DNA from: Paracoccaceae bacterium
Lineage (GTDB): Bacteria; Pseudomonadota; Alphaproteobacteria; Rhodobacterales; Rhodobacteraceae
Length of the DNA stretch: 64,000 nt
Assembly: GCA_009773375.1 (NCBI GenBank)
Contig: WRPH01000023.1
Location: forward strand, 1-64,000
Direction: 5' to 3'
A model generated the notes under the pieces. That model saw nothing but the letters and a program-made list of their open reading frames with translations. It was not told where the DNA came from and did not search any database. Position 1 is the stretch's first letter. Every line of letters begins with the position of its first letter. The translations under genes and the position numbers were made by a program. Below, piece by piece: positions 10,733 to 23,172 of this stretch.

Positions 10733-10794
10733 GCCTGCGCTTGGCGTAGGCCGCTGGCCTCGCTAAGGTCGGGCATTCCTGTATCGGAGATAGC

Positions 10795-12177
10795 ATGCCC
10801 GCCCCTTGGACCCTGACCGCCACCGAGCTTGCCGCCCGGATTGCCCGCCGCCAGATTTCCGCGCGCGAGGCGACAGCCTCGGTGCTGGCGCGGATGGAGC
10901 AAGTGAACCCGGCGCTGAATGCGGTGGTGCAGCGGATGGATGCGCAGGCGTTGGCGGCGGCAGATGCGGTTGATATGGCACTGGCTCAGGGCCGGGCGGT
11001 GGGGCCGCTGGCGGGGGTGCCGGTGACGATCAAGGTCAATGTCGATCAGGTGGGCGAGGTGACAAGCAACGGCTTGCGCACGCAGGCGGGTCTGATTGCG
11101 GCCGAAGATAGCCCGGTTGTGGCCAATCTGCGCAGAGCGGGGGCGGTGATTGTCGGGCGCACCAACACGCCGGCTTTCAGCTTGCGCTGGTTCACCCGCA
11201 ACGGCCTGCATGGGGCTACGAAAAACCCGCATGATCCGGGGCTTACACCGGGCGGCTCGTCGGGCGGCGCCGGGGCTGCGGTGGCGGCGGGGATCGGGCC
11301 GATTGGCCATGGCACCGATATTGCCGGATCGATTCGCTATCCCGCCTATGCCTGCGGCGTGCATGGCTTGCGCCCGTCGCTGGGCCGGGTGCCGAGCTTC
11401 AATCCGACCGGCGGCGACCGGCTGATCGGCGGGCAGCTGATGGCGGTGGGCGGGCCCTTGGCGCGGTCGATCCCCGATCTGCGGCTGGCACTGGCGGCGA
11501 TGGCAGCACCCGATCTGCGCGATCCGTGGTGGCAGGCGATGCCGTTGCAGGGCGCTGCGGTGCCCGCCCGCGTTGCCTATGTCGAGGCCCCAGACGGGAT
11601 GGCGGTGGCCGCCCCGGTGCGGGATGCGCTGCGGGCGGCGGCGGCGCGGCTGGCTGATGCGGGCTATCAGGTGGAGGCGGTAAATCCGCCGCCGCTGCGC
11701 GAGGCGATGGCGCTGCAACTGCGGCTGTGGTTGGCCGAATTCCGCCACGCGGGTCTGGCTGGCTTGCGGGCCGAGGCCGACCCGGATGCGGATTTCGTCT
11801 ATGCCCAGATGGCGCGGCATTGCCCCGAGATGGACCTGCACGGCCTGATGGACACCTTGCAGCAAAGGGCGCGGCTGACCCGGTTGTGGCGGAGTTTTCT
11901 AGCCGACTGGCCGCTGGTGCTGTGCCCGGTGTCGGGTGAATTGCCGTTTGCCGATCACCGCGATGTGGCGTCAGAGGCGGATTTTGACGCCGTGCTGGAG
12001 GCGCAGTTGCCGCTGATCGCCACGCCGTTTATGGGCCTGCCGGGGCTGACGGTGACCACCGGCAAGGTAGGCCGCAGCCCGGTGGGGGTGCAGCTGATCG
12101 CCGATCAGTTCCGCGAAGACCTGCTCTTGGCGGCGGGCGAGGTGCTGGCCCGCGCCCCGATTGCCGCGCTGGCTTAA
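10795..12177 (+). CDS. Amidase signature family hydrolase, 460 aa
   Basis: A cytoplasmic amidase of the amidase signature family, which hydrolyses amides to carboxylate and ammonia. The Ser-cisSer-Lys triad is complete: K80 in VTIKVN, cis-S155 in GGSSGG, and nucleophile S179 in GTDIAGSIRYPA, with the same spacing as in the family. The substrate cannot be read from sequence. The gene converges on, and overlaps by four bases, the last gene of the catabolic island. It may therefore supply or process an amide for that pathway, but it could equally be unrelated. Confidence 0.88.
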   Translation: MPAPWTLTATELAARIARRQISAREATASVLARMEQVNPALNAVVQRMDAQALAAADAVDMALAQGRAVGPLAGVPVTIKVNVDQVGEVTSNGLRTQAGLIAAEDSPVVANLRRAGAVIVGRTNTPAFSLRWFTRNGLHGATKNPHDPGLTPGGSSGGAGAAVAAGIGPIGHGTDIAGSIRYPAYACGVHGLRPSLGRVPSFNPTGGDRLIGGQLMAVGGPLARSIPDLRLALAAMAAPDLRDPWWQAMPLQGAAVPARVAYVEAPDGMAVAAPVRDALRAAAARLADAGYQVEAVNPPPLREAMALQLRLWLAEFRHAGLAGLRAEADPDADFVYAQMARHCPEMDLHGLMDTLQQRARLTRLWRSFLADWPLVLCPVSGELPFADHRDVASEADFDAVLEAQLPLIATPFMGLPGLTVTTGKVGRSPVGVQLIADQFREDLLLAAGEVLARAPIAALA

Positions 12178-12692
12178 TCTTCCGTCAGATGCACCGCCTT
12201 GCGATAGGCGCGCTGGCCATAAAGCAGCGCCGCCGGTTCATCAGACAGCCATGCGGCGGTGACCTGACCGACGATGATATAGTGCGTTTCCCACAGCAGG
12301 GCGGTGGCGAGTTTGCATTCGAAATTCGCGGTTGCCCCGGCCAGAATCGGCTGGCCACCGGGGCCTGCGAACCACTCCACCGCCTCAAACCGCGACGGCG
12401 CGTCGGGTTTGGCGCGGCCTGCAAACAGGTCAGACAGCGCTTGCTGGTTCTGCCCCAGCAGATTGGCGCAGAAGGCGCGGTTCTTCAGGATCGCGGTGGC
12501 GGCAGGGCTGAGGTGATGCACGCAGGCCAATAGCGACGGGTGATCGCCATCGGCGGAAACCGAGGTCAGCGAGCTGATGGTGACGCCAAAGCGCCCGGCC
12601 TCGCCATCAGTGGTGGCCACCGCGACAAAGGTCGCGGCGCGGCTCATGCCTTCCAGAAAACGATTGCGCAGATCGGTTTGCATGGCGGTCAT
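12174..12692 (-). CDS. Flavin reductase (HpaC-like), 172 aa
   Basis: A flavin reductase-like FMN-binding protein. Proteins of this family reduce FMN or FAD with NAD(P)H and pass it to a partner monooxygenase. The GVTISSLTSVSADGDHPSLLACV block and the C-terminal HYIIVGQV segment are typical. Its ATG overlaps the stop of the glutamine-synthetase-like gene (ATGA), so the two are translationally coupled. It is the last gene of the minus-strand catabolic island. The natural partner could be the acyl-CoA-dehydrogenase-fold protein at 16003-17313. Confidence 0.88.
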   Translation of the reverse strand: MTAMQTDLRNRFLEGMSRAATFVAVATTDGEAGRFGVTISSLTSVSADGDHPSLLACVHHLSPAATAILKNRAFCANLLGQNQQALSDLFAGRAKPDAPSRFEAVEWFAGPGGQPILAGATANFECKLATALLWETHYIIVGQVTAAWLSDEPAALLYGQRAYRKAVHLTED

Positions 12693-14035
12693 CCCAGATC
12701 AAAGAAGCGCATCAGTTCCACATCCGGCACCTTCTTGGCAAACTGGTCGTGCTGGCTTTGCCGGGTGGCGCTGAAGGTTTCGACAAACCGCTCACCGAGC
12801 CAGTCGCGGGCGAAATCCGACGCGCGCAGGCGGGCAATCGCCTCGGGCATTGACCGTGCATAGTCCGGGCCGCCTTCGGTCTTGTTGGCATGGCCGTTGC
12901 CCAGCACCTCGGGCTGCGGTTCAATCTTTTCGATGATCCCGGCGACTCCGGCGGCAAGCGTGGCCGCAACCGTCAGATAGGGGTTGGTATCGGCCCCCGG
13001 CAGGCGGTTTTCCACCCGCAGGCTGCCTTCGTCATGCCCGACGACGCGGAAACAGGTGGTGCGGTTTTCGTAACCCCAAGTCAGACCGGGTGGCGCGAAA
13101 GTGCCGGGCGCAAAGCGGCGATAGCTGTTGACGGTGGGCAGAAACACAAGGCTCACATCACCGATATATTTCTGCAAGCCGCCGAGGAAATACTTGAAGG
13201 TCTGGCTGATGCCGTTGCGCGCGCCGTCTTCGTGGAACAGCGTCTTGCCGGTGGCATCCTTCATCGAGATATGCAGGTGGATCGACTGGCTGTCTGCGGT
13301 TTCAATCCAGCGTGGCATGAAGGTGACAGACCGCCCCTGCCGCAATGCCAGCGCGCGGATGAAGTTTTTCAGCAAGATCAATTGGTCGGCAGGCTCCAGC
13401 CCTTCGCCCGCGCCGATGCAGGCCTCCAGGAAACCGCCGCCGATTTCCTCGTGCATCTTGGCAAGGTCGATCTTCAGCGGGCCGCACATGTCGGACAGCG
13501 CCTCGTACCAGTCCGATTGCACGGTCTGATACAGCACCAGATCGTGGCTGGCGTGCATGGTGGCGGTTTTCAGGTTGCGATAGCCCTTGTCGCGCGCTGA
13601 TTCCGGGGTCTCGTCGAACAGGGTATATTCCAGCTCCATGCCGTATTTCGGATGCAGCCCGTGTGCGGCAGCCCGTTCCAACACCTTTTTCAGGATCGAG
13701 CGCGGGCAGATCTGCGCGGTGTCGCCGGAATAATTGGTCAGCACCAGCATGTCGTGCCCCGGCTTGGCCCAGGGAATGCTGCGCGCGGTGGCGGGATCGA
13801 CGATCAGCGGATCATCGTGGAAATCGCCGGTGCCATCGGTGACGCCGGGCATTTCCAGCATTTCATCAGTCGGGTCCAGCGCCAGTTGCGCCGGGGCCAT
13901 GCCCATGCCGTTTTTCAAAATGCCTTTCAGGCTTTTGACCGACACCATCTGCCCACGCAGAAGGCCATTGGTGTCAACAAGCGCGACAGTCGCAAAGCGG
14001 TTGGCAGGGTCGGCGATATAGGCATCAAGGGTCAT
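12689..14035 (-). CDS. Glutamine synthetase-like ligase (gamma-glutamylamide synthetase type), 448 aa
   Basis: A member of the glutamine synthetase superfamily, catalytic domain with KYGMELEYTLFD and the HLHISM and NSYRRFAPGTFAPPGLTWGYENRT segments that build the ATP and glutamate sites. It resembles PuuA/IpuC/aniline-pathway ligases that join glutamate to an amine more than housekeeping GlnA. The gene is translationally coupled to a TetR regulator upstream and a flavin reductase downstream, which also argues for a specialised catabolic role. The amine substrate is unknown. Confidence 0.88.
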   Translation of the reverse strand: MTLDAYIADPANRFATVALVDTNGLLRGQMVSVKSLKGILKNGMGMAPAQLALDPTDEMLEMPGVTDGTGDFHDDPLIVDPATARSIPWAKPGHDMLVLTNYSGDTAQICPRSILKKVLERAAAHGLHPKYGMELEYTLFDETPESARDKGYRNLKTATMHASHDLVLYQTVQSDWYEALSDMCGPLKIDLAKMHEEIGGGFLEACIGAGEGLEPADQLILLKNFIRALALRQGRSVTFMPRWIETADSQSIHLHISMKDATGKTLFHEDGARNGISQTFKYFLGGLQKYIGDVSLVFLPTVNSYRRFAPGTFAPPGLTWGYENRTTCFRVVGHDEGSLRVENRLPGADTNPYLTVAATLAAGVAGIIEKIEPQPEVLGNGHANKTEGGPDYARSMPEAIARLRASDFARDWLGERFVETFSATRQSQHDQFAKKVPDVELMRFFDLG

Positions 14036-14712
14036 GGTTCACCTGTTGGGGGGACGGGGCTTTGCAAGCCCTCTAGGGTGGCAAGATCGTTGGCGATATG
14101 GGTGGAATAGGCACGCAGGAACACCCGCAGGCCGTTGGTCAGATAGCGGGCAATCTGGGCGCGATCAGGCGGGGCGTCGGGCAGATACAGCGCTTGCGTC
14201 CGGGGGGCCGACAGGATCAGGCCCCACAGGTCTTGCGCCGCCAGTTCGGCATCGTCGAACGCCAGCAGCCCCTCGGCGCGGCGGCCTTCCAGATAGGCCA
14301 TCACCCCGGCCAGCAGCCGATCGGGCCCGGAAGCCTGATAGGCGCGGCCAATTTCGGGAAAGCGCTGCACCTCGCCGATGATCAGCCGGGCCAGCGCCAG
14401 CAGGTCGGGCCGCATCACCGTATCGGCATAGTGCCAGGCAAAGCTGTGCAACTGTTCAACCATGCTGCCGGGGGCGCCGTCGGCAAAAGACTGCAGCATG
14501 TCATCGCGCTTTTGCAGCATCATCGCGGTGAACAATTGCTCTTTGCTGTCGAAATACTGATACAGCGTCGGTTTCGACAGCCCGGCTTCGGCGGCCACTA
14601 CATCCATCGAGGCCCCGGAATAGCCGCTGTTCGAGAACACTTTCAGCGCCGCCGCAAGGATGGCCTTTTCCTTGGCGATGCGATTTTGTTGGCGGCGCGG
14701 AAGCGCGTTCAC
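14032..14712 (-). CDS. TetR/AcrR-family regulator, 226 aa
   Basis: A transcriptional repressor with an N-terminal helix-turn-helix (about residues 12-60: ILAAALKVFSNSGYSGASMDVVAAEAGLSKPTLYQYFDSKEQLF) and a variable C-terminal ligand domain. It is embedded in the catabolic operon, with four-base overlaps on both sides. It therefore likely senses a pathway intermediate and autoregulates, in addition to the GntR protein at the other end of the island. Confidence 0.93.
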   Translation of the reverse strand: MNALPRRQQNRIAKEKAILAAALKVFSNSGYSGASMDVVAAEAGLSKPTLYQYFDSKEQLFTAMMLQKRDDMLQSFADGAPGSMVEQLHSFAWHYADTVMRPDLLALARLIIGEVQRFPEIGRAYQASGPDRLLAGVMAYLEGRRAEGLLAFDDAELAAQDLWGLILSAPRTQALYLPDAPPDRAQIARYLTNGLRVFLRAYSTHIANDLATLEGLQSPVPPTGEP

Positions 14713-16001
14713 GCGACCACCTTTGCCAGAAACTCCAGCAGATGCCGGCTGTAGGTTTCCGGCGATTCGACGTTGCAGACGTGGCCTGCGCCCGCGATCA
14801 CCTCAAAGCGCACGTCCGGCTGTGGGGCCAGATCGAAAATCCGGCCAGCAACGGCGCGAATCTCGGCGGGAGGGGCAAGCCGGTCATGTGCGCCGGTCAT
14901 CAGCAGAACCGGCATGGTCAGTCGGGCAAAATCGAACCGCTCCAACGGGTTGGTAAAGCAGACCAGCGCATCGCGGTAGGTGGCGGCGGGAATGGCGGCC
15001 ATCGATTGCAGCAACGCGGCGCGCACCGGGTCCGCGGCATCGGGGCCAGCCAGCACCTTGACCACCGCAGGCGCGAAATCGGCGGGCACCTGGCCTGCGT
15101 TCAACGGCACCTCGCGTGACACACGAAAGGCTTCGCGTTCTTCCGGGCCAGCCTCTGACATGCCAGTGCAGCCGCCCGACAGCACCAGACCGGCCAACAT
15201 CTCGGGGTGGCGCATCGCGAAGGAGGTGGCGATCCACGATCCGTAAGACAGCCCGACCAGCACCAGCTTGTCGGCCCCCAGCACCTGACGCAGCCGCAGG
15301 ATGTCGGCGCAATAGTCATCGACGGTGGATTGCTGCGGGCCAAGCGTGCTGTCGCCATAGCCGCGCAAATCCAGCGCAGCCGCCTGTACGGTGTGGCCGA
15401 CCACGCCAAGCTGATCCCGCCAATTGCGCCGCCCGCCGCCGATGCCGTGCAGGAAGATCACCAAAGGGCCGGGTTTCGCCGGAGTGACCGAAACCGCCAA
15501 GCGCGGCAGATCATCGATCATCCGGGTTTCCACCGCAACCGGGGCGGGCAGGGCGGCAGGGGGTGTTTCCACAACCCCCGCCTCGGCCTGCGCGGCCAGC
15601 GCCTTGATCCCAGCCTCGAAAATCGCCTTGGTGCCTTCCGCAATCTCGGCGGCGCGCTGCGGCGAGGCGGTCAGGCTGGCGGTCATGCTGATCACCGAGC
15701 CACCCCGTTCGGCGGCCGTCACCGATAGCCGGGCATTGTAGCTTTCCACTCCCCGGATGCCTTCCAGATGGCGGTAAGCATAGCTGCGATCGCTGTCGCT
15801 GAACCACGTCAGTTGTTCGCGGTACAGCGTGTCTTCGCCGCTGGCGGTAAAGGCGCGGATCAGCGCGCCCCGAGGCCCGCGCTCGGCCCGCATCGTTGCC
15901 AAAGCCGGGTGCCACAGCCCGCAGAAATCGCGGGCAATGGCCCAGACAGCCGCGGGGTCCGCCGCCGAAAAGCCAAGCGCATGCACCTGCTCGCGGGCCA
16001 T
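14709..16001 (-). CDS. SRPBCC domain fused to alpha/beta hydrolase, 430 aa
   Basis: A two-domain protein. Residues 1 to about 140 form a polyketide-cyclase/SRPBCC-type domain (FSAADPAAVWAIARDFCGLWHP and the SVTAAERGGSVISMTASL strands). After an Ala/Pro linker, residues 165-430 are an alpha/beta hydrolase with oxyanion motif HGIGGG (185-190), nucleophile S252 in GLSYG, Asp373 in AHDRLAP and His407 in GAGH. The hydrolase half is of the kind that includes N-formylmaleamate deformylase of the nicotinate pathway, which is suggestive beside a NicX-like gene. I do not know this fusion as a named enzyme. The ATG at 16001 starts two bases after the upstream stop. Confidence 0.82.
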   Translation of the reverse strand: MAREQVHALGFSAADPAAVWAIARDFCGLWHPALATMRAERGPRGALIRAFTASGEDTLYREQLTWFSDSDRSYAYRHLEGIRGVESYNARLSVTAAERGGSVISMTASLTASPQRAAEIAEGTKAIFEAGIKALAAQAEAGVVETPPAALPAPVAVETRMIDDLPRLAVSVTPAKPGPLVIFLHGIGGGRRNWRDQLGVVGHTVQAAALDLRGYGDSTLGPQQSTVDDYCADILRLRQVLGADKLVLVGLSYGSWIATSFAMRHPEMLAGLVLSGGCTGMSEAGPEEREAFRVSREVPLNAGQVPADFAPAVVKVLAGPDAADPVRAALLQSMAAIPAATYRDALVCFTNPLERFDFARLTMPVLLMTGAHDRLAPPAEIRAVAGRIFDLAPQPDVRFEVIAGAGHVCNVESPETYSRHLLEFLAKVVA

Positions 16002-16002
16002 T

Positions 16003-17313
16003 TTAGCGCAACATCCGCAAGGTGCCGCTGTCGCCGCGCCACAGCGAGTTGCGCGCCGCACCTTCATCACCGGGGGCGCTGTCGATTTCGTCCATCTCAT
16101 ACAGGGCCAGCACGCCCATGTAATCTTCCATGATTTCAGAGGTATAGGGTAGCATCAGCGCGCCACAGCGGCTGTCGCGATACATCCGCTCCAGCGGCAT
16201 GGATTTCAGCATAGACTGCCCGCCCGCAGTGCGGATCGCCAGCGCCGCAATTTCCTGCACGCCTTCCATGACGTTATACTGGGCTGCATACATCCGCATC
16301 ACCTCGCCCTTGCTGGGGAAGCCCTTGCATTCGGAAAACGCCTGCCACCACAGCGCCCGCATATTCGCCAGACGCGCATACATCTTGCCGACGGTGATGC
16401 GCTTGGTGGCATACATCCGCCGGTCAATCGGCGGCTGGCCGGGGGTCTTGCCTTTCAGGTAATCCACCATGAAATCATAAGCCCCCTGCGCCAGACCCAT
16501 ATAGGTGGGCGACAGCGTCGCCATCATATGCGGCCAGTTCGGCAGGGTTTTGCCAAAGATGCCGGGCGGCATCAGCATGTCATCGGCGGTGACGAACACA
16601 TCCTTCAGGATCAGATCGCGGCTGTTGGTGCCGCGCATGCCCAGCGGGTCCCATTCGCCCTTGACCGACAGGCCGGGCGCGTCCTTGTGGACGACGAACA
16701 GCACGGTGTCTTCATGGCGCGGCTCGATGCCTTCAAAGACCTCGGTGCAGACGATGGTGTAATAATCGCAATACCCGGCAAGTGACGCGAACTTCTTGAA
16801 GCCGCTGATCTTCCAGCCACCATCGACCTTGCGGCACTGGGTCTGGTTCGGCTTCGACGTCCAGTTCTGCCCGCCTTCGGAAATCGGCTGCGAGAAGATC
16901 GCTTTTTCCGCAATCGCGCGGCGGAACTGGCGTTCGCGCAGCGGCGCAAAGGCGGCTTTTTCCTCGGGCGTCAGGTTCGGCATGTCATACATGAAGCGCG
17001 ACCATGCCATCGACGAGTTGTGCATGTTGAAGGTCAGCGCGGTGGCACCGCAGAATTTGGCAATCTCGGCCCCGACCATGGCGTATTCGAACATCGAAAA
17101 GCCCATGCCGCCGAATTCTTCCGGGATGCACAGGCCAAGAAAGCCCTCGTCCGCCAGATCCTTGTAGTTTTCCACCGGGAAGCTCGCGTCGATGTCCACC
17201 TGCGCCGAACGCGGGGCAAACTTTTCGCGCCCCAACTCGTTCACACGGCGCAGCACGGCCTGCACTTCGGGGCGGATGCGGGACAGGTCATAATAGTCGG
17301 CGATATCGCTCAT
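16003..17313 (-). CDS. Acyl-CoA dehydrogenase-fold flavoprotein, possibly a monooxygenase, 436 aa
   Basis: This protein has the acyl-CoA dehydrogenase fold: N-terminal helical domain with GLCIPEEFGGMGFS, central beta domain, and C-terminal four-helix domain ending in MYRDSRCGALMLPYTSEI. In medium-chain dehydrogenases the catalytic Glu lies in YEGT at the corresponding place. Here the segment reads LPYT (388-392), so that Glu is missing. The same fold is used by flavin-dependent monooxygenases such as DszC and HsaA that work with a separate flavin reductase, and two flavin reductase-like genes lie in this island. Hydroxylation of an aromatic or heterocyclic substrate is therefore a plausible role, not a proven one. 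Some dehydrogenases place the Glu elsewhere, so a dehydrogenase is not excluded. Confidence 0.8.
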   Translation of the reverse strand: MSDIADYYDLSRIRPEVQAVLRRVNELGREKFAPRSAQVDIDASFPVENYKDLADEGFLGLCIPEEFGGMGFSMFEYAMVGAEIAKFCGATALTFNMHNSSMAWSRFMYDMPNLTPEEKAAFAPLRERQFRRAIAEKAIFSQPISEGGQNWTSKPNQTQCRKVDGGWKISGFKKFASLAGYCDYYTIVCTEVFEGIEPRHEDTVLFVVHKDAPGLSVKGEWDPLGMRGTNSRDLILKDVFVTADDMLMPPGIFGKTLPNWPHMMATLSPTYMGLAQGAYDFMVDYLKGKTPGQPPIDRRMYATKRITVGKMYARLANMRALWWQAFSECKGFPSKGEVMRMYAAQYNVMEGVQEIAALAIRTAGGQSMLKSMPLERMYRDSRCGALMLPYTSEIMEDYMGVLALYEMDEIDSAPGDEGAARNSLWRGDSGTLRMLR

Positions 17314-17372
17314 GGTCGTCTCCCTCGTGGCGTCTTGATGCGCCAGAATTTACTGAAATGCTTTGACCCGCG

Positions 17373-18425
17373 TTACAGCGCCAGATCGCCCTGCAGCACG
17401 CCTGCCTTCACCACAACCTTGCCATCCAAGGCGATGGTGCAGTTGCGCATTGGCAGATCGAAATGGCCCAGCGTGTAGCGGCCTGCGTATTGGTTGGCGC
17501 CGGTGGACCACAGGAAAGACCCCGGCAAAGCGCGGAATTCCACCGCCTGCATGTCGCGCTTGTCATACATCGCAGCCGAGACCCATTTGGCCCCCGGATT
17601 GACGCCCCAGCCGACATGGGAAATGCCATAGGCGTTGCGGTCGTCCCAGGCTTCCATGTATTCGCGCAGGTGCAACGCGTCGATGCCATCGCCCTTGATC
17701 GCGGTGACGAAATCGTTCTCGACGGTGAAGTCGATGCGGCTGGTCAGGTAGGTTTTGAACGTCAGGTTCATATCGCCCACGTCCATCACCACCCGGCCGT
17801 TGACCGCGTCCTTGCCCGGAAAGGCAAGGCAAAGCCCGCCCGGCCAATGCGCCACTGCACCCGGATGGGTGGCAAAGCCGGGGGTGCCGCCGCAAGGCGC
17901 ATCACGCAGATTGATCGTCAGATCGGTGCCAGCGGCAGAGGTGACGCGCATCTCGTTGGCCTCGCGCAGCATCTGGATGCCCAGTTGCACGCGGGCGGCA
18001 TGTTCGGCCTTGGGTTCGGTGCGCTCCAGAATTTCCGGGTGCTCGTTGGTGATCACCAGCAGCCGGGCGCGACCGGCATCTTCAATTTCCGGCCATTCCG
18101 GTGCGTGGATCAGGCCTTCCACCGTGCAATCCACCACGATATCTTGCAACTTCAGCGCCTCGATGACCGAGCGGTTTTGCTGGATCGCCCAGCTTGTGCC
18201 GGTGGATTTCACCGGAACCGGAGCAGATTGCGGCGGGGTGGGCATCTGGATCATGCAGAATTCGGCACCCAGATCATAGGCGGCTAGCTCGCACAGATGC
18301 ACCAGAACCGGGCGCGACTGGGTTTCCGAGATGATCGCAACCTTGGTGCCCTTGCCGATGCCGTTCAGCGCGAAAACCCGCCGGAAGGCCGCCAGCCATT
18401 TTCCTTCGATCCGTTCCTGCAGCAT
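17373..18425 (-). CDS. NicX-like 2,5-dihydroxypyridine 5,6-dioxygenase, 350 aa
   Basis: Full-length match by eye to the NicX / M29-aminopeptidase-like family. The conserved C-terminal blocks YGISHVGWGVNPGAKW, FLWSTGANQY and GHFDLPMRNC line up with NicX of the nicotinate pathway. The iron ligands expected from that enzyme are all present as H270, H321 and D323, with similar spacing. NicX opens 2,5-dihydroxypyridine to N-formylmaleamate using Fe(II) and O2. The start follows AAGGGGGA. Here it sits upstream of the ACAD-fold and hydrolase genes and has its own upstream region. The precise substrate is uncertain; an aminopeptidase role is the main alternative. Confidence 0.82.
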   Translation of the reverse strand: MLQERIEGKWLAAFRRVFALNGIGKGTKVAIISETQSRPVLVHLCELAAYDLGAEFCMIQMPTPPQSAPVPVKSTGTSWAIQQNRSVIEALKLQDIVVDCTVEGLIHAPEWPEIEDAGRARLLVITNEHPEILERTEPKAEHAARVQLGIQMLREANEMRVTSAAGTDLTINLRDAPCGGTPGFATHPGAVAHWPGGLCLAFPGKDAVNGRVVMDVGDMNLTFKTYLTSRIDFTVENDFVTAIKGDGIDALHLREYMEAWDDRNAYGISHVGWGVNPGAKWVSAAMYDKRDMQAVEFRALPGSFLWSTGANQYAGRYTLGHFDLPMRNCTIALDGKVVVKAGVLQGDLAL

Positions 18426-18462
18426 CCGGCTTTCCCCCTTGACGATTCGGTCTTGGATATTT

Positions 18463-18480
18463 CTTAACTCTATAGTTAAG
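18463..18480. promoter_or_regulatory. Inverted repeat CTTAAC-N6-GTTAAG upstream of NicX-like gene
   Basis: A 6+6 bp inverted repeat ends 38 bases before the ATG of the NicX-like gene. Its placement and AT-rich centre suggest a promoter/operator for the downstream half of the island. The binding protein is not known; the TetR protein of the operon is one candidate. Confidence 0.45.
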
Positions 18481-18511
18481 CTTTTCCTGCCTGCGACAAT
18501 CTGTCAACAAC

Positions 18512-18523
18512 ATTTTCGAAAAT
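18512..18523. promoter_or_regulatory. Palindrome ATTTTCGAAAAT, candidate GntR operator copy
   Basis: A perfect 12-bp palindrome, identical to the one at 22321-22332 in the GntR/dioxygenase intergenic region. It lies 87 bases upstream of the NicX-like start. A related half, TTGCGAAAAT, follows at 18533. The identity of the two copies suggests that one regulator controls both transcription units. Confidence 0.6.
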
Positions 18524-18555
18524 ATCGCAGCTTGCGAAAATGCTTGCGGCGAAGG

Positions 18556-18603
18556 CGATTTCCGAATGGAAATCGAAGCCGGAATTCGTGCGAATTCCGG
18601 CTT
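18556..18603. terminator. Tandem hairpins splitting the catabolic operon
   Basis: Two perfect hairpins lie side by side: CGATTTCC-GAAT-GGAAATCG at 18556-18575, and a 13-bp stem beginning AAGCCGGAATTCG with a 2-base loop at 18576-18603. They fall between the flavin reductase-like gene and the NicX-like gene. There is no strong U-run, so they may act as an mRNA stabiliser or partial terminator rather than a full stop. Confidence 0.55.
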
Positions 18604-18630
18604 GATTGGGCAAAAGAAAATTTGAAGCGC

Positions 18631-19266
18631 TTAGCGCCCGTTGGCCTTCGACCACTCTGCCCACTTCGGGCGATCTAGCTCAAAGCTGTCTTGCGTGCGA
18701 ATATAGGTGGACCCGAAGCTGCGGCTGACAAGATCCAGGTCGGGGCTGGCAATATGTGCCCGCTCCGGGTTTTTCACATATTTATCATCAATATAGACCG
18801 ACAGAACCCGCCCGATCACCACTGTCTGATGTGGCCCCGTCACCACCGACGACAGCGCGGTGCATTCAAATGCCACCGGGCTTGCCGCGATGCGCGGCGG
18901 ACGGATCATCAGGCTTGGCTCGGTCGCCAACCCGGCCAGATCAAGCTCATTCACCCCGGCTGGTGCGTCAACCGAGGTGATGTTCATCGCCCCCACCAGC
19001 GCCTCTGGCACCAGATTAACCACGAATTCGCCGGTTTCCAGAATGTTGCGGGCAGTGTCCTTGAAGCCGCGCACCGGGTCGGCCATCAGCCCCAGCACCA
19101 CCGTCGGCGGGGCAGACCCCATCACGTTGAAAAAGCTGTAGGGCGCTGCATTGACCCGGCCCGCGCCGTCTTGCGTCACCACCCAGGCAATCGGGCGCGG
19201 GATCACCGTTGCCGCCAGCAGTTTGTAGGCAATCGCCTCGGGCACCTGATCCAACTGCCAGCGCAT
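18631..19266 (-). CDS. Flavin reductase-like domain protein, 211 aa
   Basis: A flavin-reductase-like FMN-binding split-barrel protein, larger than the one at 12174. The segments LLAATVIPRPIAWVVTQDG and NAAPYSFFNVMGSAPPTVVLGL are family hallmarks. It may reduce flavin for an oxygenase or act directly as an oxidoreductase. The start overlaps the nitrilase stop by one base (TGATG), so it is co-translated with the dioxygenase-FAH-nitrilase genes. It is the last gene before the tandem hairpins. Confidence 0.85.
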   Translation of the reverse strand: MRWQLDQVPEAIAYKLLAATVIPRPIAWVVTQDGAGRVNAAPYSFFNVMGSAPPTVVLGLMADPVRGFKDTARNILETGEFVVNLVPEALVGAMNITSVDAPAGVNELDLAGLATEPSLMIRPPRIAASPVAFECTALSSVVTGPHQTVVIGRVLSVYIDDKYVKNPERAHIASPDLDLVSRSFGSTYIRTQDSFELDRPKWAEWSKANGR

Positions 19267-20192
19267 CAGACTTCCTTTACCGCCAGTTTTGCCCGTGTAT
19301 CCACCGTCAGGCTGAACACATCCGGGCGGGCGTAATGCCCGGTCACGTCGAAATCATACTTGGCCCGCATGATTTCCGCAGGATCCAGCGTAGCATAAAG
19401 AATCACCTCGCCGCTGAAATCCGGGCCAGCCAACACCCGCCCCAACGGGCCGACAATCGCCGAGCCGCCACGCATCATCACCGTCGCCGGGTCATCGCCC
19501 AAGGCGCTTTCGTGATCCGGCCCAAAGGCCGCGCGGGTGATATATTGGCAGGCGGTCAGCACAAACGTCCGCCCCTCCTGCGCGATGTGCTGCATCGTTG
19601 GCAGCCAGGTGTCGCGATCATCGGCGGTGGGGGCGCAATACAGGCTAACGCCTTGATGATACATGTGCATCCGCAGCGCCGGCATGTAGTTTTCCCAGCA
19701 GATCACCGCCCCGATGGTGCCGAAATCGGTCTTGAACACCGGCAGGGTTGACCCATCGCCAAAGCCCCAGATCAACCGTTCGGCCGCTGTTGGCATCAGC
19801 TTGCGGTGCTTGCCGACCAGCCCGTTTGCACCATCAAAATACAGCGCGGTGCAGTAAAGCGTCGCGCCGTCGCGTTCAATCACCCCCACCACCGCGAAAG
19901 CGCCGGTCTCTGCCGTAGCCTCGGCCAAAGCCGCCACTTCCGGCCCATCCAGATCAATCGCGGCGGCATGATAGCGGGCAAACGCTTCACGGCCCTCGGG
20001 CTTGCGCATGCCGATCGGCGCACCAAAGCTGGCCCCTTTCGGATAGCCGCCGATCAGCGCCTCGGGGAAGACCACCAGCCGAGCGCCTTGACCGGCCGCT
20101 TCGCGTAGTCGCGCAGCCGCCAGCCCGGCCGTCGCCATAGCGTGATTCGGGTTCGACGCCATCTGCACGACGGCAACTTTGAACGCGGTCAT
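19266..20192 (-). CDS. Nitrilase / carbon-nitrogen hydrolase, 308 aa
   Basis: A nitrilase superfamily enzyme, which converts nitriles to acids plus ammonia, or hydrolyses related C-N bonds. The Glu-Lys-Cys triad is visible: E44 in FPEALIGGYPKG, K131 in GKHRKLMPTAAE, and C165 in GAVICWENYMP. The residues around the Cys (CWENYMP) are those of true nitrilases rather than of amidase branches. It is encoded three bases after the FAH-family gene. The substrate is probably aromatic or heterocyclic given the context. Confidence 0.9.
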   Translation of the reverse strand: MTAFKVAVVQMASNPNHAMATAGLAAARLREAAGQGARLVVFPEALIGGYPKGASFGAPIGMRKPEGREAFARYHAAAIDLDGPEVAALAEATAETGAFAVVGVIERDGATLYCTALYFDGANGLVGKHRKLMPTAAERLIWGFGDGSTLPVFKTDFGTIGAVICWENYMPALRMHMYHQGVSLYCAPTADDRDTWLPTMQHIAQEGRTFVLTACQYITRAAFGPDHESALGDDPATVMMRGGSAIVGPLGRVLAGPDFSGEVILYATLDPAEIMRAKYDFDVTGHYARPDVFSLTVDTRAKLAVKEV

Positions 20193-20195
20193 GGT

Positions 20196-21116
20196 TTACT
20201 CCGGGGTGGCGTTGACGATGGGATGGCGCAGGGTGCCGATGCCCTCCACGCTAGCCACAACCACATCGCCCGGCCACATGAATTCTTGCGGCGTGCGCCC
20301 CGCGCCCACCCCTTCCGGCGTGCCCGATGCGATGATGTCGCCGGGTTCCAGCGTGATGCCCGACGAGATGTCGGAAATCAGCTCATTGACCTTGAACAGC
20401 ATCTTCGAGGTGTTTGATCGCTGCTTTTCCACCCCGTTCAGCGTCAGCCACAGTTCCAGCACCTGTGGGTCAGGGATTTCATCCGCCGTCACGATGCAGG
20501 GGCCAAATGGCGCGTAAGTGTCTTGCCCCTTTGAGAAAATCCACTGTCCGGCGCGGCGGTTGTCGCGGGCGGAAACGTCGATCATCACCGAATAGCCGAA
20601 CACATGTTTCAATGCATCGGCGCGGGTCACACGGCGGGCGCGGGTGCCGATGATCACCGCCAGTTCCACCTCCCAATCCAGTTGCTGGGTGATCTTGGCA
20701 TTGTGTTCAATCGGGTCGCCCGGCCCGATCACAGAGGTCGGCGGTTTGGAAAAGATCACCGGCTGCTTTGGCAAATCCTTGTTGGTATCCAAAGCCTTGG
20801 CGCTTTCGGCGACATGTTCGAGATAGTTCAGGCCGATGCCGAAGATGTTCTTGCGCGGGCGCGGAATCGGGGCAAGCAGCGTCACATTCGCCACATCAGT
20901 CGCCACCCCTGCCGCGTAGTCGCCTTCTGCGCCGTCAAGGCAGGCCTTCAAACTTGCCAGCCCCGCCCGCCCCGCGTCGATCAGCCCCAGCATCGACTCC
21001 GGCAAATCCTCGCCCATCAGCGCGCCCAGACGCGCGACATCGACCACCAGATCGCCATCCATCACGCCCAGCCGCGCCGCCGCCTCGACCGAGGCCCGAT
21101 AAGTCACCAGTTTCAT
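20196..21116 (-). CDS. Fumarylacetoacetate hydrolase-family protein, 306 aa
   Basis: A FAH-family hydrolase that cleaves a C-C bond in a dioxo acid. FGIGLNYLEHV, SKPPTSVIGPGDPI, the acidic metal-binding DWEVELAVIIG and SGTPEGVGAG are all present. It lies 9 bases downstream of the gentisate-type dioxygenase gene, so the likely substrate is the ring-cleavage product (maleylpyruvate or fumarylpyruvate type). No maleylpyruvate isomerase is visible in the island, which would fit direct hydrolysis of the cis product. Confidence 0.9.
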   Translation of the reverse strand: MKLVTYRASVEAAARLGVMDGDLVVDVARLGALMGEDLPESMLGLIDAGRAGLASLKACLDGAEGDYAAGVATDVANVTLLAPIPRPRKNIFGIGLNYLEHVAESAKALDTNKDLPKQPVIFSKPPTSVIGPGDPIEHNAKITQQLDWEVELAVIIGTRARRVTRADALKHVFGYSVMIDVSARDNRRAGQWIFSKGQDTYAPFGPCIVTADEIPDPQVLELWLTLNGVEKQRSNTSKMLFKVNELISDISSGITLEPGDIIASGTPEGVGAGRTPQEFMWPGDVVVASVEGIGTLRHPIVNATPE

Positions 21117-21125
21117 ATTCAGTCC

Positions 21126-22247
21126 TTACAGAAGCGGCTGATAGCCGTTGTTGTCGCCAAAGCTTTCCTCGCGATACAGCCCAAGCGCACGCATCACCGG
21201 GATATCCGACAGGCAGAACAGGCAGGCATCCTCGCCAGGCTGATCGTTGACATGTTCATGCCAAGCCCAGGATGGCACGCAGAAGATGTCGCGCTCCTGC
21301 CAGTCAAACCGCTTGCCGTTGATGATCGAATGCCCTTTGCCCTTGGCCACATGGTAAAGATAGCTGCCGGTATGGCGGTGCGCGCGGGTGTGTTCGCCCG
21401 GACGCAACATCTGCATGCTGGCCCCCAGCGTGCGCATCACCGGTCCGTTGGTGGTCGGGTTCACATATTCCATCAGCACCCCATCGAAGGGAGAGCCATC
21501 GGTGCAGCTGGCATATTTCGTCAGCGCCTCGTAGGTCGGCGCCCATTCATATTTGAACATCGGACTATAGCCCTTCGACCACGCCCCGCCGCCCGGCGTC
21601 AGCCCGGCATTGCCCCAGGTTTTCGTCATGTCATCAACGGCATAGCCTACGGCTTGGCGCAGATCGGGGTGAACCTCGTAGAAATTCGCCTCCATCGCGT
21701 TGACGAAGGGAATGTCCAACCCGTCCTGCCAGATGCAGGGCGAACCCTCGGCGGCAACGCCATGTTCGTGCCAGGTGCCGTTCGGCGTCAGCACGAAATC
21801 ATTGGCGCCCAGCGTCATCTTGTGGCCATCGACCACCGTGTAAGCGCCAGAGCCTTCCATGATGAACCGGATGGCGCTGGCGGAATGGCGATGTGCGCTT
21901 GCCACCTCGCCGGGGTTCATCACCTGCAAGCCGGCGTAGATCCAGCCCACGGCGGCGGCCACATCCGTCCGCCCCGGATTGTTCAGGTAAATCACCCGCC
22001 GCCCGGCCTTTTCCGGCGTAACCAACTGCACCGAGCGCAGCACATGTTCCCGCAGATCCTTGAAGCGCCAGACCACCGGCACAGACTGGCTTTGTGGCTG
22101 CCAGGGTTCGATCTTGTTGGCTACCGTCCACAACGCGCCGGTATGATAGGTCTGAAGATCGTCATAATAGGCCAGCAACTCCGGCGTATCTTCGACATTG
22201 GCGCGACCAATGACATCCTCGCGGTGGTTCTCGTGCGGTTTGGACAA
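21126..22247 (-). CDS. Gentisate/salicylate 1,2-dioxygenase-like bicupin, 373 aa
   Basis: A ring-cleaving Fe(II) dioxygenase with two cupin domains. The N-terminal cupin carries H119 and H121 (AHRHSASAIRF) and H160 (GTWHEHG). These fall at the same positions as the iron ligands of salicylate 1,2-dioxygenase of Pseudaminobacter. The C-terminal cupin also keeps a HxH (HTRAHRHTGSYLYHV). A TTG at 22247 is the best start: it follows AGGGGG, and the protein then begins LSKPHENHRE as usual for the family. The gene heads the island, divergent from the GntR regulator. Gentisate, salicylate or an amino/hydroxy analogue are all possible substrates. Confidence 0.87.
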   Translation of the reverse strand: MSKPHENHREDVIGRANVEDTPELLAYYDDLQTYHTGALWTVANKIEPWQPQSQSVPVVWRFKDLREHVLRSVQLVTPEKAGRRVIYLNNPGRTDVAAAVGWIYAGLQVMNPGEVASAHRHSASAIRFIMEGSGAYTVVDGHKMTLGANDFVLTPNGTWHEHGVAAEGSPCIWQDGLDIPFVNAMEANFYEVHPDLRQAVGYAVDDMTKTWGNAGLTPGGGAWSKGYSPMFKYEWAPTYEALTKYASCTDGSPFDGVLMEYVNPTTNGPVMRTLGASMQMLRPGEHTRAHRHTGSYLYHVAKGKGHSIINGKRFDWQERDIFCVPSWAWHEHVNDQPGEDACLFCLSDIPVMRALGLYREESFGDNNGYQPLL

Positions 22248-22300
22248 GGCAGCCCCCTGTGATCTGGAATGACCCGTGATAAGCGGAAAGTGCGTCGACG

Positions 22301-22360
22301 TTTTTTCGAAAGCAAGCACAATTTTCGAAAATAATCGAATTGCGATGAAATTTCGAAAAG
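22301..22360. promoter_or_regulatory. Three TTTCGAAA-type palindromes between dioxygenase and GntR genes
   Basis: The intergenic region contains TTTTTTCGAAAG (22301-22312), the perfect palindrome ATTTTCGAAAAT (22321-22332) and AATTTCGAAAAG (22349-22360). Their centres are 19 and 28 bases apart. The middle copy is repeated exactly at 18512-18523. They are the most likely operators for the divergently encoded GntR regulator. Confidence 0.6.
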
Positions 22361-22392
22361 GGCATAGTCAGCGGGAACAAGGTAGACCCAAC

Positions 22393-23055
22393 ATGACACT
22401 TTCGGAAAAAGCCTATAACGCGCTGCGGCAGGATATCATCAGGGGGGCGCTGGGGCAGGGCAAGCCGCTGCGGATGGCGGAGCTGAGCGCGCGCTATGAT
22501 ATGGGCTTTTCGCCGCTGCGCGAGGCGCTGAACCGGCTGCAATCGGAACGGCTGGTGGTGGCCGAGGCGTTGCGGGGGTTCAAGGTGGCCTCGCTGTCGA
22601 TGGCTGAAATGCGCGATGCGATTGAAACCCGGATTCTGGTCGAAACCGCGGCGCTGCGGGCGGCGATCTTGCGGGGCGACGATGACTGGGCTGCCGGGAT
22701 CGTGGCGGCGCTTTACGCGCTGAAATTGCAGGTCGAGCGCCGCGACACCGAGGCGGATATCTGGGAGTTGGAGGCCCGCCACTACGCTTTTCATCGCGCC
22801 TTGCTGGCGGCTTGCGGGTCGGCGTGGCAGTTGGAGTTCTTTGACCGGCTTTACGCCGCAACCGAACGCTACCGCATCCCGATCCTGCTGAATCGGGCGG
22901 GCGGGCAGGGGCGGGATATTCAGGGCGAGCATGCCGCGCTGGCCGAGGCGACGCTTGCGCGGGATGCTGATCTTGCGACCGATCTGCTGCGGCAGCATTA
23001 TCAGCGCTCTGCCGAGATTATCGGGCGCAGCATGCAGGCTGAATTTGCGATGTAA
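22393..23055 (+). CDS. GntR-family (FCD/FadR subgroup) transcriptional regulator, 220 aa
   Basis: A regulator with an N-terminal winged helix (about residues 2-65: EKAYNALRQDIIRGALGQGKPLRMAELSARY, then SPLREALNRLQSERLVV) and a helical C-terminal FCD ligand domain (about 75-210). FCD-type regulators usually sense an organic acid and repress catabolic genes. It is divergent from the ten-gene island and the shared palindromes lie between them, so it is the likely main regulator. The start at ATG 22393 follows AAGG; in-frame sequence upstream would run into the operators. Confidence 0.92.
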   Translation: MTLSEKAYNALRQDIIRGALGQGKPLRMAELSARYDMGFSPLREALNRLQSERLVVAEALRGFKVASLSMAEMRDAIETRILVETAALRAAILRGDDDWAAGIVAALYALKLQVERRDTEADIWELEARHYAFHRALLAACGSAWQLEFFDRLYAATERYRIPILLNRAGGQGRDIQGEHAALAEATLARDADLATDLLRQHYQRSAEIIGRSMQAEFAM

Positions 23056-23098: not shown

Positions 23099-23172
23099 GC
23101 GGGCATTGTGTAATGGTAAGACCTTAGCCTTCCAAGCTAAAGACGCGGGTTCGATTCCCGCTGCCCGCTCCA
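23099..23172 (+). tRNA. tRNA-Gly (anticodon UCC)
   Basis: The acceptor stem GCGGGCA pairs with TGCCCGC, with discriminator T and encoded CCA ending at 23172. The anticodon stem TTAGC/GCTAA encloses CTTCCAA with anticodon TCC. The T-arm GCGGGTTCGATTCCCGC is complete. Confidence 0.97.

Follow-up and report, generated by a model that had tools for sequence, protein, structure and literature searches.

Several described gene clusters share parts with the locus considered here, an eleven-gene catabolic cluster in a 64,000-nucleotide stretch (the window) of contig WRPH01000023.1 from a Paracoccaceae bacterium (assembly GCA_009773375.1). For NicX, the ring-cleaving dioxygenase of the nic cluster, roles have been assigned to the iron ligands and to Glu177, which binds dihydroxypyridine (DHP) and whose change to alanine leaves 2.7% of activity (PMC7910607; this and the following papers are cited for the accessible parts of their text). 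AtdA1 and NpaA1 glutamylate aniline and 1-naphthylamine, respectively, and loss of the flap Glu type is known in amine-glutamylating relatives of glutamine synthetase (GS) (PMC11335346). The kpi 4-hydroxypyridine cluster of Arthrobacter sp. IN13 brings together a flavin monooxygenase, an unusual ring-opening dioxygenase (KpiC), an alpha/beta hydrolase, a FAH protein and a regulator of the FadR type (PMC7356986), and the iif/ind indole clusters pair a two-component oxygenase with a flavin reductase (PMC6221969). Nocardia opaca, according to a review, converts anthranilate through 5-hydroxyanthranilate and gentisate to maleylpyruvate (PMC4539516); for indole degradation, a 2018 review stated that the functional gene of the gentisate pathway was still to be revealed (PMC6221969).

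The window cluster resembles each of these systems in part. It has the same kinds of gene as kpi, but KpiC is an amidohydrolase-family enzyme rather than a NicX, and a GS-like ligase, a bicupin and a nitrilase are not mentioned in the accessible kpi text. As in the AtdA1 and NpaA1 systems, a GS-like ligase without the flap Glu stands in a catabolic operon, but here a flavoprotein and a NicX-type enzyme take the place of the other partners; no amidotransferase-like or Rieske dioxygenase gene was present among the cluster's scanned proteins. The probable two-component oxygenase and its flavin reductase recall iif/ind, but in place of their SDR and cofactor-independent oxygenase the window cluster has a NicX-type dioxygenase and a hydrolase. 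Neither a NicX-type nor a hydrolase gene is named in the accessible account of the Providencia indole cluster (PMC9871250). The author of a preliminary description of this DNA knew of no described pathway with this gene set, and none combining it was found among the open-licence PMC papers surveyed; the parts are of known kinds, and what is new to us is how they are combined and how the NicX pocket is altered. The cluster is two conserved, separable operons (modules A and B), not one. With a probability of roughly 45%, we propose that these modules, each with its own regulator, have been combined into a degradation route for nitrogen-bearing aromatics of the tryptophan/indole/anthranilate branch. 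The proposal draws support from gene content and synteny, from conserved residues and operator-like motifs, and from co-occurrence across genomes; from these we infer the substrates and reaction steps.

Module A encodes the NicX-like dioxygenase, an acyl-CoA dehydrogenase (ACAD)-fold flavoprotein, an SRPBCC-alpha/beta hydrolase fusion, a TetR-family regulator, the GS-like ligase and a flavin reductase (FR2). Module B comprises a divergent GntR gene, the bicupin dioxygenase, a FAH-family hydrolase, a nitrilase and a flavin-reductase-like protein (FR1). The NicX-like protein was compared with genome contigs, and the best 80 of 139 confirmed stretches (77-95% identity), mainly from Rhodobacteraceae and Rhizobiales but also from a few further groups, SAR116 among them, were combined with four plasmid loci to give a neighbourhood set of 84 loci; 74 of these have at least 8 kb downstream, 69 have 8 kb upstream and 65 have both. 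All 74 downstream-complete loci contain the ACAD-fold and hydrolase genes, and TetR, the GS-like ligase and FR2 are present in 71, 69 and 64 of them, respectively. The preliminary description had noted the lack of a transporter, which is true of the cluster here, but elsewhere an APC permease follows module A in 53/74 loci. Among the 69 upstream-complete loci, bicupin and FAH were each found in 30 (FAH accompanies the bicupin in 30/30 bicupin loci), GntR in 29, FR1 in 28, the nitrilase in 16 and maleate isomerase in two. Where both flanks are complete, A and B occur together in 29/65 loci and A alone in 36/65. The modules lie far apart, at different sites, in two genomes (G034 and G234); B stands alone in L151 and L153, neither of whose genomes has a NicX match, and L163 has the NicX-ACAD-hydrolase core without the rest. 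The idea of a single catabolic island therefore survives only in part: neighbours in other genomes are organised as two separate conserved operons, but A and B co-occur and have a common operator motif when adjacent. Because the same gene order recurs in dozens of genomes, the locus is more than a chance assembly. A close NicX relative (groups A and C, defined below) was found in 18/295 genomes of the family and in 10/196 genomes of an order sample. Named carrier strains belong, among others, to Tabrizicola, Fertoeibacter, Mesorhizobium and Shinella, the Shinella loci having module A only. Both modules are carried by cultured bacteria such as Fertoeibacter niger (L056) and Mesorhizobium amorphae CCNWGS0123 (L088, without the nitrilase).

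The module B motif is also seen at A's promoter, chiefly in loci that contain B. In the 64 kb window, TTTTCGAAA has six occurrences (four sites) against 0.29 expected, and all sites lie in the bicupin/GntR promoter region or upstream of the NicX-like gene. Across loci, the roughly 300 bases upstream of the bicupin contain TTTCGAAA in 35/49 cases and those upstream of the NicX-like gene in 33/95, with about 2 expected per set. At the NicX promoter, this GntR-type motif was found in 23/38 loci with a bicupin compared with 10/57 without (p = 2.4e-5), the latter including contigs that end before the bicupin position, such as L043. A palindrome, TTAACT-N4-AGTTAA, precedes the start codon of the NicX-like gene by 39-54 bases; chance would give 0.09 such sites in the whole window. 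Allowing up to three changes, it is present in 75/81 loci with a TetR gene, compared with 2.6 expected, and in 9/14 loci without one, some at other positions. In G034, one of the two genomes with separated modules, the palindrome is confined to A and the GntR motif to B; in G234, the GntR motif is again found at B, but neither motif was seen at A at the strictness used. The TetR and GntR regulators would presumably bind the palindrome and the TTTTCGAAA-type motif, respectively. Sigma-70 and terminator scans performed no better than shuffles.

The NicX-like protein matches solved NicX (PDB: 7cn3) at 204 bits and produced no Pfam match at E 0.01 and no NCBIfam match at E 1e-4. The iron ligands His265, Ser302, His318 and Asp320 are retained in the window protein and in 84 group A, eight group C and eight group D sequences, with Val for Asp320 in one A sequence. 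His105 and His189 are also shared with NicX, although two of the three nic-cluster NicX proteins compared have Phe in place of His105. The pocket differs at Glu308, which is Tyr here, and at Glu177, which is Thr in the window protein, in 84/84 A and in 8/8 C sequences, Val or Ile in 8/8 D sequences, and Glu in all three nic-cluster references. These residues, above all the lost DHP-binding Glu177, speak against a plain DHP dioxygenase, as the preliminary description had typed the enzyme; its recognition of two unrelated ring-cleavage dioxygenases, a gentisate-type bicupin and a NicX-family protein, was correct. At the level of gene content, the nic cluster likewise has an alpha/beta hydrolase neighbour, and maleate isomerase is shared by two of our loci (L073 and L078), but here ACAD/FR2 occupy the place of NicC, and the GS-like ligase and SRPBCC fusion are additional differences. 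No NicC-type FAD monooxygenase, NicF or NicE was present among the ten scanned proteins or recognised in nearby open reading frames (ORFs) (window to 27000).

The other module A enzymes are consistent with amine and flavin chemistry by type. In 104/105 ACAD-fold sequences, Pro (LPYT) replaces the catalytic Glu of acyl-CoA dehydrogenases, which we take to sit in a YEGT motif; the remaining sequence has a gap. The protein is a probable two-component monooxygenase, with FR2 as its proposed partner. Its nearest solved relatives are ACAD-fold proteins. Its model matches a "Flavin-containing monooxygenase" (PDB: 5z8t) and a putative ACAD at Z values that true dehydrogenases reach as well; with many ACAD folds tied in this way, the fold does not name the reaction. 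The SRPBCC-hydrolase is weakly NicD-like (27% over 90 residues and 24% over 258, with no match to a third NicD) and is a candidate deformylase or amide hydrolase. In the GS-like ligase, whose nearest solved relatives are GS-like entries, 85/85 aligned sequences carry Phe (PGTFAP) where glutamine synthetases have the flap Glu (PGYEAP); the enzyme is probably of the gamma-glutamyl-amine type. A 56% relative heads a GS-amidotransferase-P450 run, the middle gene being annotated as a glutamine amidotransferase, on a Sagittula stellata plasmid (L191), near NF006101-named/2-aminobenzoyl-CoA-type genes. Tryptamine or serotonin as the amine was considered and dropped, its sole basis being one Aminobacter neighbour (tyramine oxidase subunit B).

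The module B bicupin is closest to gentisate dioxygenase 3bu7 (559 bits), presumably from Silicibacter pomeroyi. It scores 306 bits against the gentisate model TIGR02272, under the 442-bit cut-off, and also matches 5-aminosalicylate 1,2-dioxygenase MabB (NF049978) at 280 bits, but this is under the 650-bit cut-off and under its gentisate-model score. In our mapping onto 2phd, it retains salicylate dioxygenase Arg83, Gln108, Arg127, His162 and Asp174, with Trp104 changed to Tyr; we also read the cupin iron histidines as retained, and the second-domain HRH and HEH as in 3bu7. The bicupin architecture, the substrate-binding residues, the first-domain histidines and the FAH partner are thus shared with gentisate 1,2-dioxygenase 3bu7, whereas the nitrilase and FR1 in the operon and a genome link to an aryl-CoA 5-hydroxylase gene set it apart from gentisate dioxygenase systems. 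No maleylpyruvate isomerase was recognised within the cluster. The nitrilase matches NIT4 at 342 bits, and its PEAL, RKLMPT and CWENYMP motifs, which hold the Glu-Lys-Cys triad of branch 1 nitrilases, are invariant in 29/29 sequences. The nearest solved relatives of FR1 are nitrilotriacetate monooxygenase B and 2-nitrobenzoate nitroreductase; a nitroreductase role, which would draw on similarity alone, was not kept. In L073 and L078 the cluster itself includes a maleate isomerase gene, which immediately follows a nitrilase other than the window's, and in L159 such a gene follows bicupin and FAH, a placement that fits a route through maleate.

Co-occurrence was assessed in the 295 family genomes. 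The module A set comprised 10 genomes at at least 75% identity to the NicX-like protein and group C eight at 67-70%; NicX matches occur in 37 genomes, and the other 19 were scored as having neither A nor C; one group C genome, G271, carries a D copy as well. Bicupin matches occur in 35 genomes, 24 at at least 55% identity being counted and 11 at 41% or less scored as without. NF006101, named salicylyl-CoA 5-hydroxylase/oxidoreductase, was scored at E 1e-200 (106 genomes, 101 above its cut-off) and tryptophan 2,3-dioxygenase at E 1e-50 (136 genomes, 84 above its cut-off). The bicupin was found in 7/10 module A genomes compared with 17/285 others. Bicupin genomes are enriched for NF006101 (24/24 versus 82/271), for X2, a benzoate-CoA-ligase-family gene (23/24 versus 79/271), and for tryptophan dioxygenase (22/24 versus 114/271), and all three are present in 10/10 module A genomes. 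The control gene PaaA was found in 16/24 bicupin genomes versus 124/271 (p = 0.057) and in 2/10 module A genomes versus 138/285 (p = 0.11). In bicupin genomes without A, NF006101 was present in 17/17 compared with 89/278. Gene order adds to this picture: X2, bicupin, FAH, nitrilase and FR1 form one run in L151, X2 precedes tryptophan dioxygenase in L110, L114 and L034, and X2 stands behind the permease in module A's run in L053, L058 and L171. X2 scores 353-361 bits against the 375-bit cut-off of the benzoate-CoA ligase family; from the family names and neighbours, X2 and NF006101 would form an aerobic 2-aminobenzoyl-CoA system. X2, NF006101 and tryptophan dioxygenase are all encoded in the window's genome, on contigs other than this one, and its CoA ligase and NF006101-type monooxygenase, at G000:C39:5116-6723 and 10747-13017 outside the window, may act on 2-aminobenzoate.

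Gentisate dioxygenases convert gentisate to maleylpyruvate. The bicupin of module B would open gentisate or 5-hydroxyanthranilate (benzoates hydroxylated at C5 and bearing a hydroxyl or amino group at C2), giving maleylpyruvate or the matching amide, maleamoylpyruvate. The FAH enzyme would release pyruvate and maleate or maleamate, the latter because, by chemical reasoning, the same cut in 5-hydroxyanthranilate leaves the amide. The nitrilase-family enzyme would take off the nitrogen, and maleate isomerase, in the cluster in few genomes only, would yield fumarate. For module A, the roles are argued by type only, from an amine ligase, a flavin monooxygenase, a NicX-type opening and a hydrolase: the APC permease (usual, absent here) would import an amine that the GS-like ligase gamma-glutamylates, the ACAD flavoprotein and FR2 would hydroxylate the nitrogen-bearing aromatic ring using reduced flavin, the NicX-type iron site would open the ring beside the nitrogen, and the SRPBCC-hydrolase would cleave the N-formyl or N-acyl product. 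The expectation that the substrate carries ring or side-chain nitrogen is upheld insofar as this is a catabolic locus with nitrogen-handling enzymes. A more specific version, which we offer as doubtful, sees in the locus the gentisate branch that has been missing from indole/anthranilate catabolism: a NicX turned to a new use would open a bicyclic or glutamylated nitrogen-bearing aromatic ring, the bicupin would open 5-hydroxyanthranilate to maleamoylpyruvate, and the nitrilase-family enzyme would free the nitrogen as an amidase.

NicX homology with all four iron ligands could alternatively be read as a hydroxypyridine pathway of the nic type, in which ACAD/FR2 would produce a dihydroxypyridine, the NicX-like enzyme N-formylmaleamate, the hydrolase would deformylate it, the nitrilase would substitute for NicF, and maleate isomerase would follow, with B an unrelated gentisate operon. 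An alpha/beta hydrolase also adjoins NicX in three nic-type clusters, the L073 maleate isomerase is 65-70% identical to the isomerases of two nic-type clusters, and the modules are separable. We nevertheless consider this pathway unlikely, since the residue whose alanine mutant is nearly inactive (Glu177) is Thr throughout group A, the hydrolase resembles NicD so weakly, neither a NicC- nor a NicF-type gene was seen in the cluster, and the common motif and co-occurrence argue against chance neighbours. An improbable route of another kind begins with indole: ACAD/FR2 would form indoxyl, the NicX-like enzyme would cut its HO-C=CH-N unit to give N-formylanthranilate, the hydrolase would release anthranilate, and X2 with the 5-hydroxylase would supply 5-hydroxyanthranilate to module B. 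In our chemical argument, indoxyl carries an enol-CH-N unit of the kind at which NicX cuts 2,5-dihydroxypyridine; ACAD-like indole oxygenases are on record (accessible text of PMC6221969), and X2 accompanies module A both in the permease runs and, with NF006101, in every module A genome. It is quite improbable that A and B are independent pathways for different substrates, found together merely as accessory genes of aromatic-degrading strains. The loci with A only, the solo copies of B, the separate regulators and motifs, and the PaaA enrichment described next would all fit such independence, but the co-occurrence of the bicupin with module A and the B motif at A's promoter argue against it.

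The joined-module proposal has several points to its disadvantage. PaaA is enriched in bicupin genomes without A (14/17 versus 126/278, p = 0.0045), so part of B's genome link may reflect a general aromatic lifestyle. Group C, the wider NicX-ACAD-hydrolase group, has no link to the anthraniloyl-CoA genes (X2 in 3/8), A's own link is weak because just three genomes have A without the bicupin, one counted NF006101 match (G142) is partial and under the curated cut-off, and the Fisher values ignore shared ancestry. The nitrilase occurs in just 16/30 bicupin loci, and that of L073/L078 is another one, 35-36% identical to the window's; since the Cys motif of the window enzyme is of the nitrilase type and its closest solved relative is NIT4, maleamate hydrolysis is conjectural. 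No role in the scheme is assigned to FR1. Maleate isomerase was not found in the window's own assembly (92.7% complete; search without a positive control), in line with the preliminary description, but it is present in the L073, L078 and L159 loci.

Feature coordinates in the window (1-based positions)
Feature	Position	Strand	Annotation	Basis
FR2	12174..12692	-	flavin reductase, RutF/HpaC-like	family scans
GS-like ligase	12689..14035	-	probably gamma-glutamyl-amine type	family scans, alignment
TetR-family regulator	14032..14712	-	module A	family scans
SRPBCC + alpha/beta hydrolase fusion	14709..16001	-	Ser, Asp, His conserved	family scans, alignment
ACAD-fold flavoprotein	16003..17313	-	probable two-component monooxygenase	family scans, solved relatives
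NicX-family Fe(II) ring-cleaving dioxygenase	17373..18425	-		match to 7cn3, iron ligands
Palindrome TTAACT-N4-AGTTAA	18464..18479	.	probable TetR operator, predicted	
ATTTTCGAAAAT, GntR-type motif	18512..18523	.	upstream of module A	motif scan
Perfect 13-base inverted repeat AAGCCGGAATTCG / CGAATTCCGGCTT	18576..18603	.	FR1/NicX-like gap, beside both operator-like sites	
FR1, flavin-reductase-like	18631..19266	-		family scans, solved relatives
Nitrilase	19266..20192	-	Glu-Lys-Cys triad, CWEN	nearest solved NIT4
FAH-family hydrolase	20196..21116	-	proposed to cut maleylpyruvate or its amide	
Bicupin dioxygenase, gentisate type	21126..about 22247	-		nearest solved 3bu7
Three TTTTCGAAA-type sites	22303..22359	.	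divergent bicupin/GntR promoter region	
GntR/FCD-family regulator	about 22393..23055	+	module B, divergent	

All ten minus-strand genes of the preliminary description were confirmed in place by the ORF list and family scans. Both regulators are present as it stated, but GntR is divergent on the plus strand, which brings the total to eleven genes, and the tight packing is interrupted between FR1 and the NicX-like gene by a 205-base stretch that carries operator-like palindromes. The bicupin ORF is open as far as 22319; the TTG at 22247 is the most likely start because orthologue lengths agree with it. The starts chosen by us for the hydrolase and GntR are the ATG codons at 16001 and 22393, respectively. 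A tRNA-Gly (23099-23172) adjoins the cluster. In the same-genus genome G247 (C24 and C27 compared), the cluster lies at another site, on a different contig from that of tRNA-Gly, the M50 peptidase and FabI, and to that extent the term "island" is fair. A tRNA-integrated island was rejected: the cluster is on the 5' side of tRNA-Gly and its GC content is as elsewhere. No integrase was noticed by eye among the ORFs of window 1-27000, where no search aimed at integrases was made.

Further variants were seen around the two modules. An amidase-signature gene (NF005687; window 10795-12177) converges on the cluster, and a 50% relative is found near a distant NicX system in L184. That system (L177-L184; G271:C24, G142, G143, G040, G133, G227, G136 and G033) combines a NicX relative (41-53%), an alpha/beta hydrolase (25-38%) and an AMP-dependent CoA ligase (24-32% to X2), with an ACAD-like protein (47-52%) in 6/8 loci and TRAP transporter genes recognised by eye beside it in L182. 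FR1 lies directly upstream of module A in L040, L047 and L054, where neither a bicupin nor a labelled FAH was found, perhaps as a trace of B loss. Cytochrome P450 and a second GS-like gene stand beside module A or the core in L040, L047, L063, L102, L109, L164 and L174, three of which have HpaH-type hydratase genes. On a Novosphingobium plasmid (L192), a 56% relative of the GS-like ligase is likewise the first gene of a run that includes a cytochrome P450. In Mesorhizobium L073 (15710-16885), L031 and other Rhizobiales, FR2 is a 388-391-amino-acid protein fused to a LysR-type substrate-binding domain, which suggests an effector-controlled reductase.

Modules A and B, often adjacent, are found in numerous bacteria of water and soil and have the appearance of a ring-opening route for nitrogen-bearing aromatics. 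A NicX subfamily with a changed substrate pocket makes it testable what else this unusual iron site cleaves, and the locus is a concrete candidate for the gentisate-route genes in indole/anthranilate degradation.

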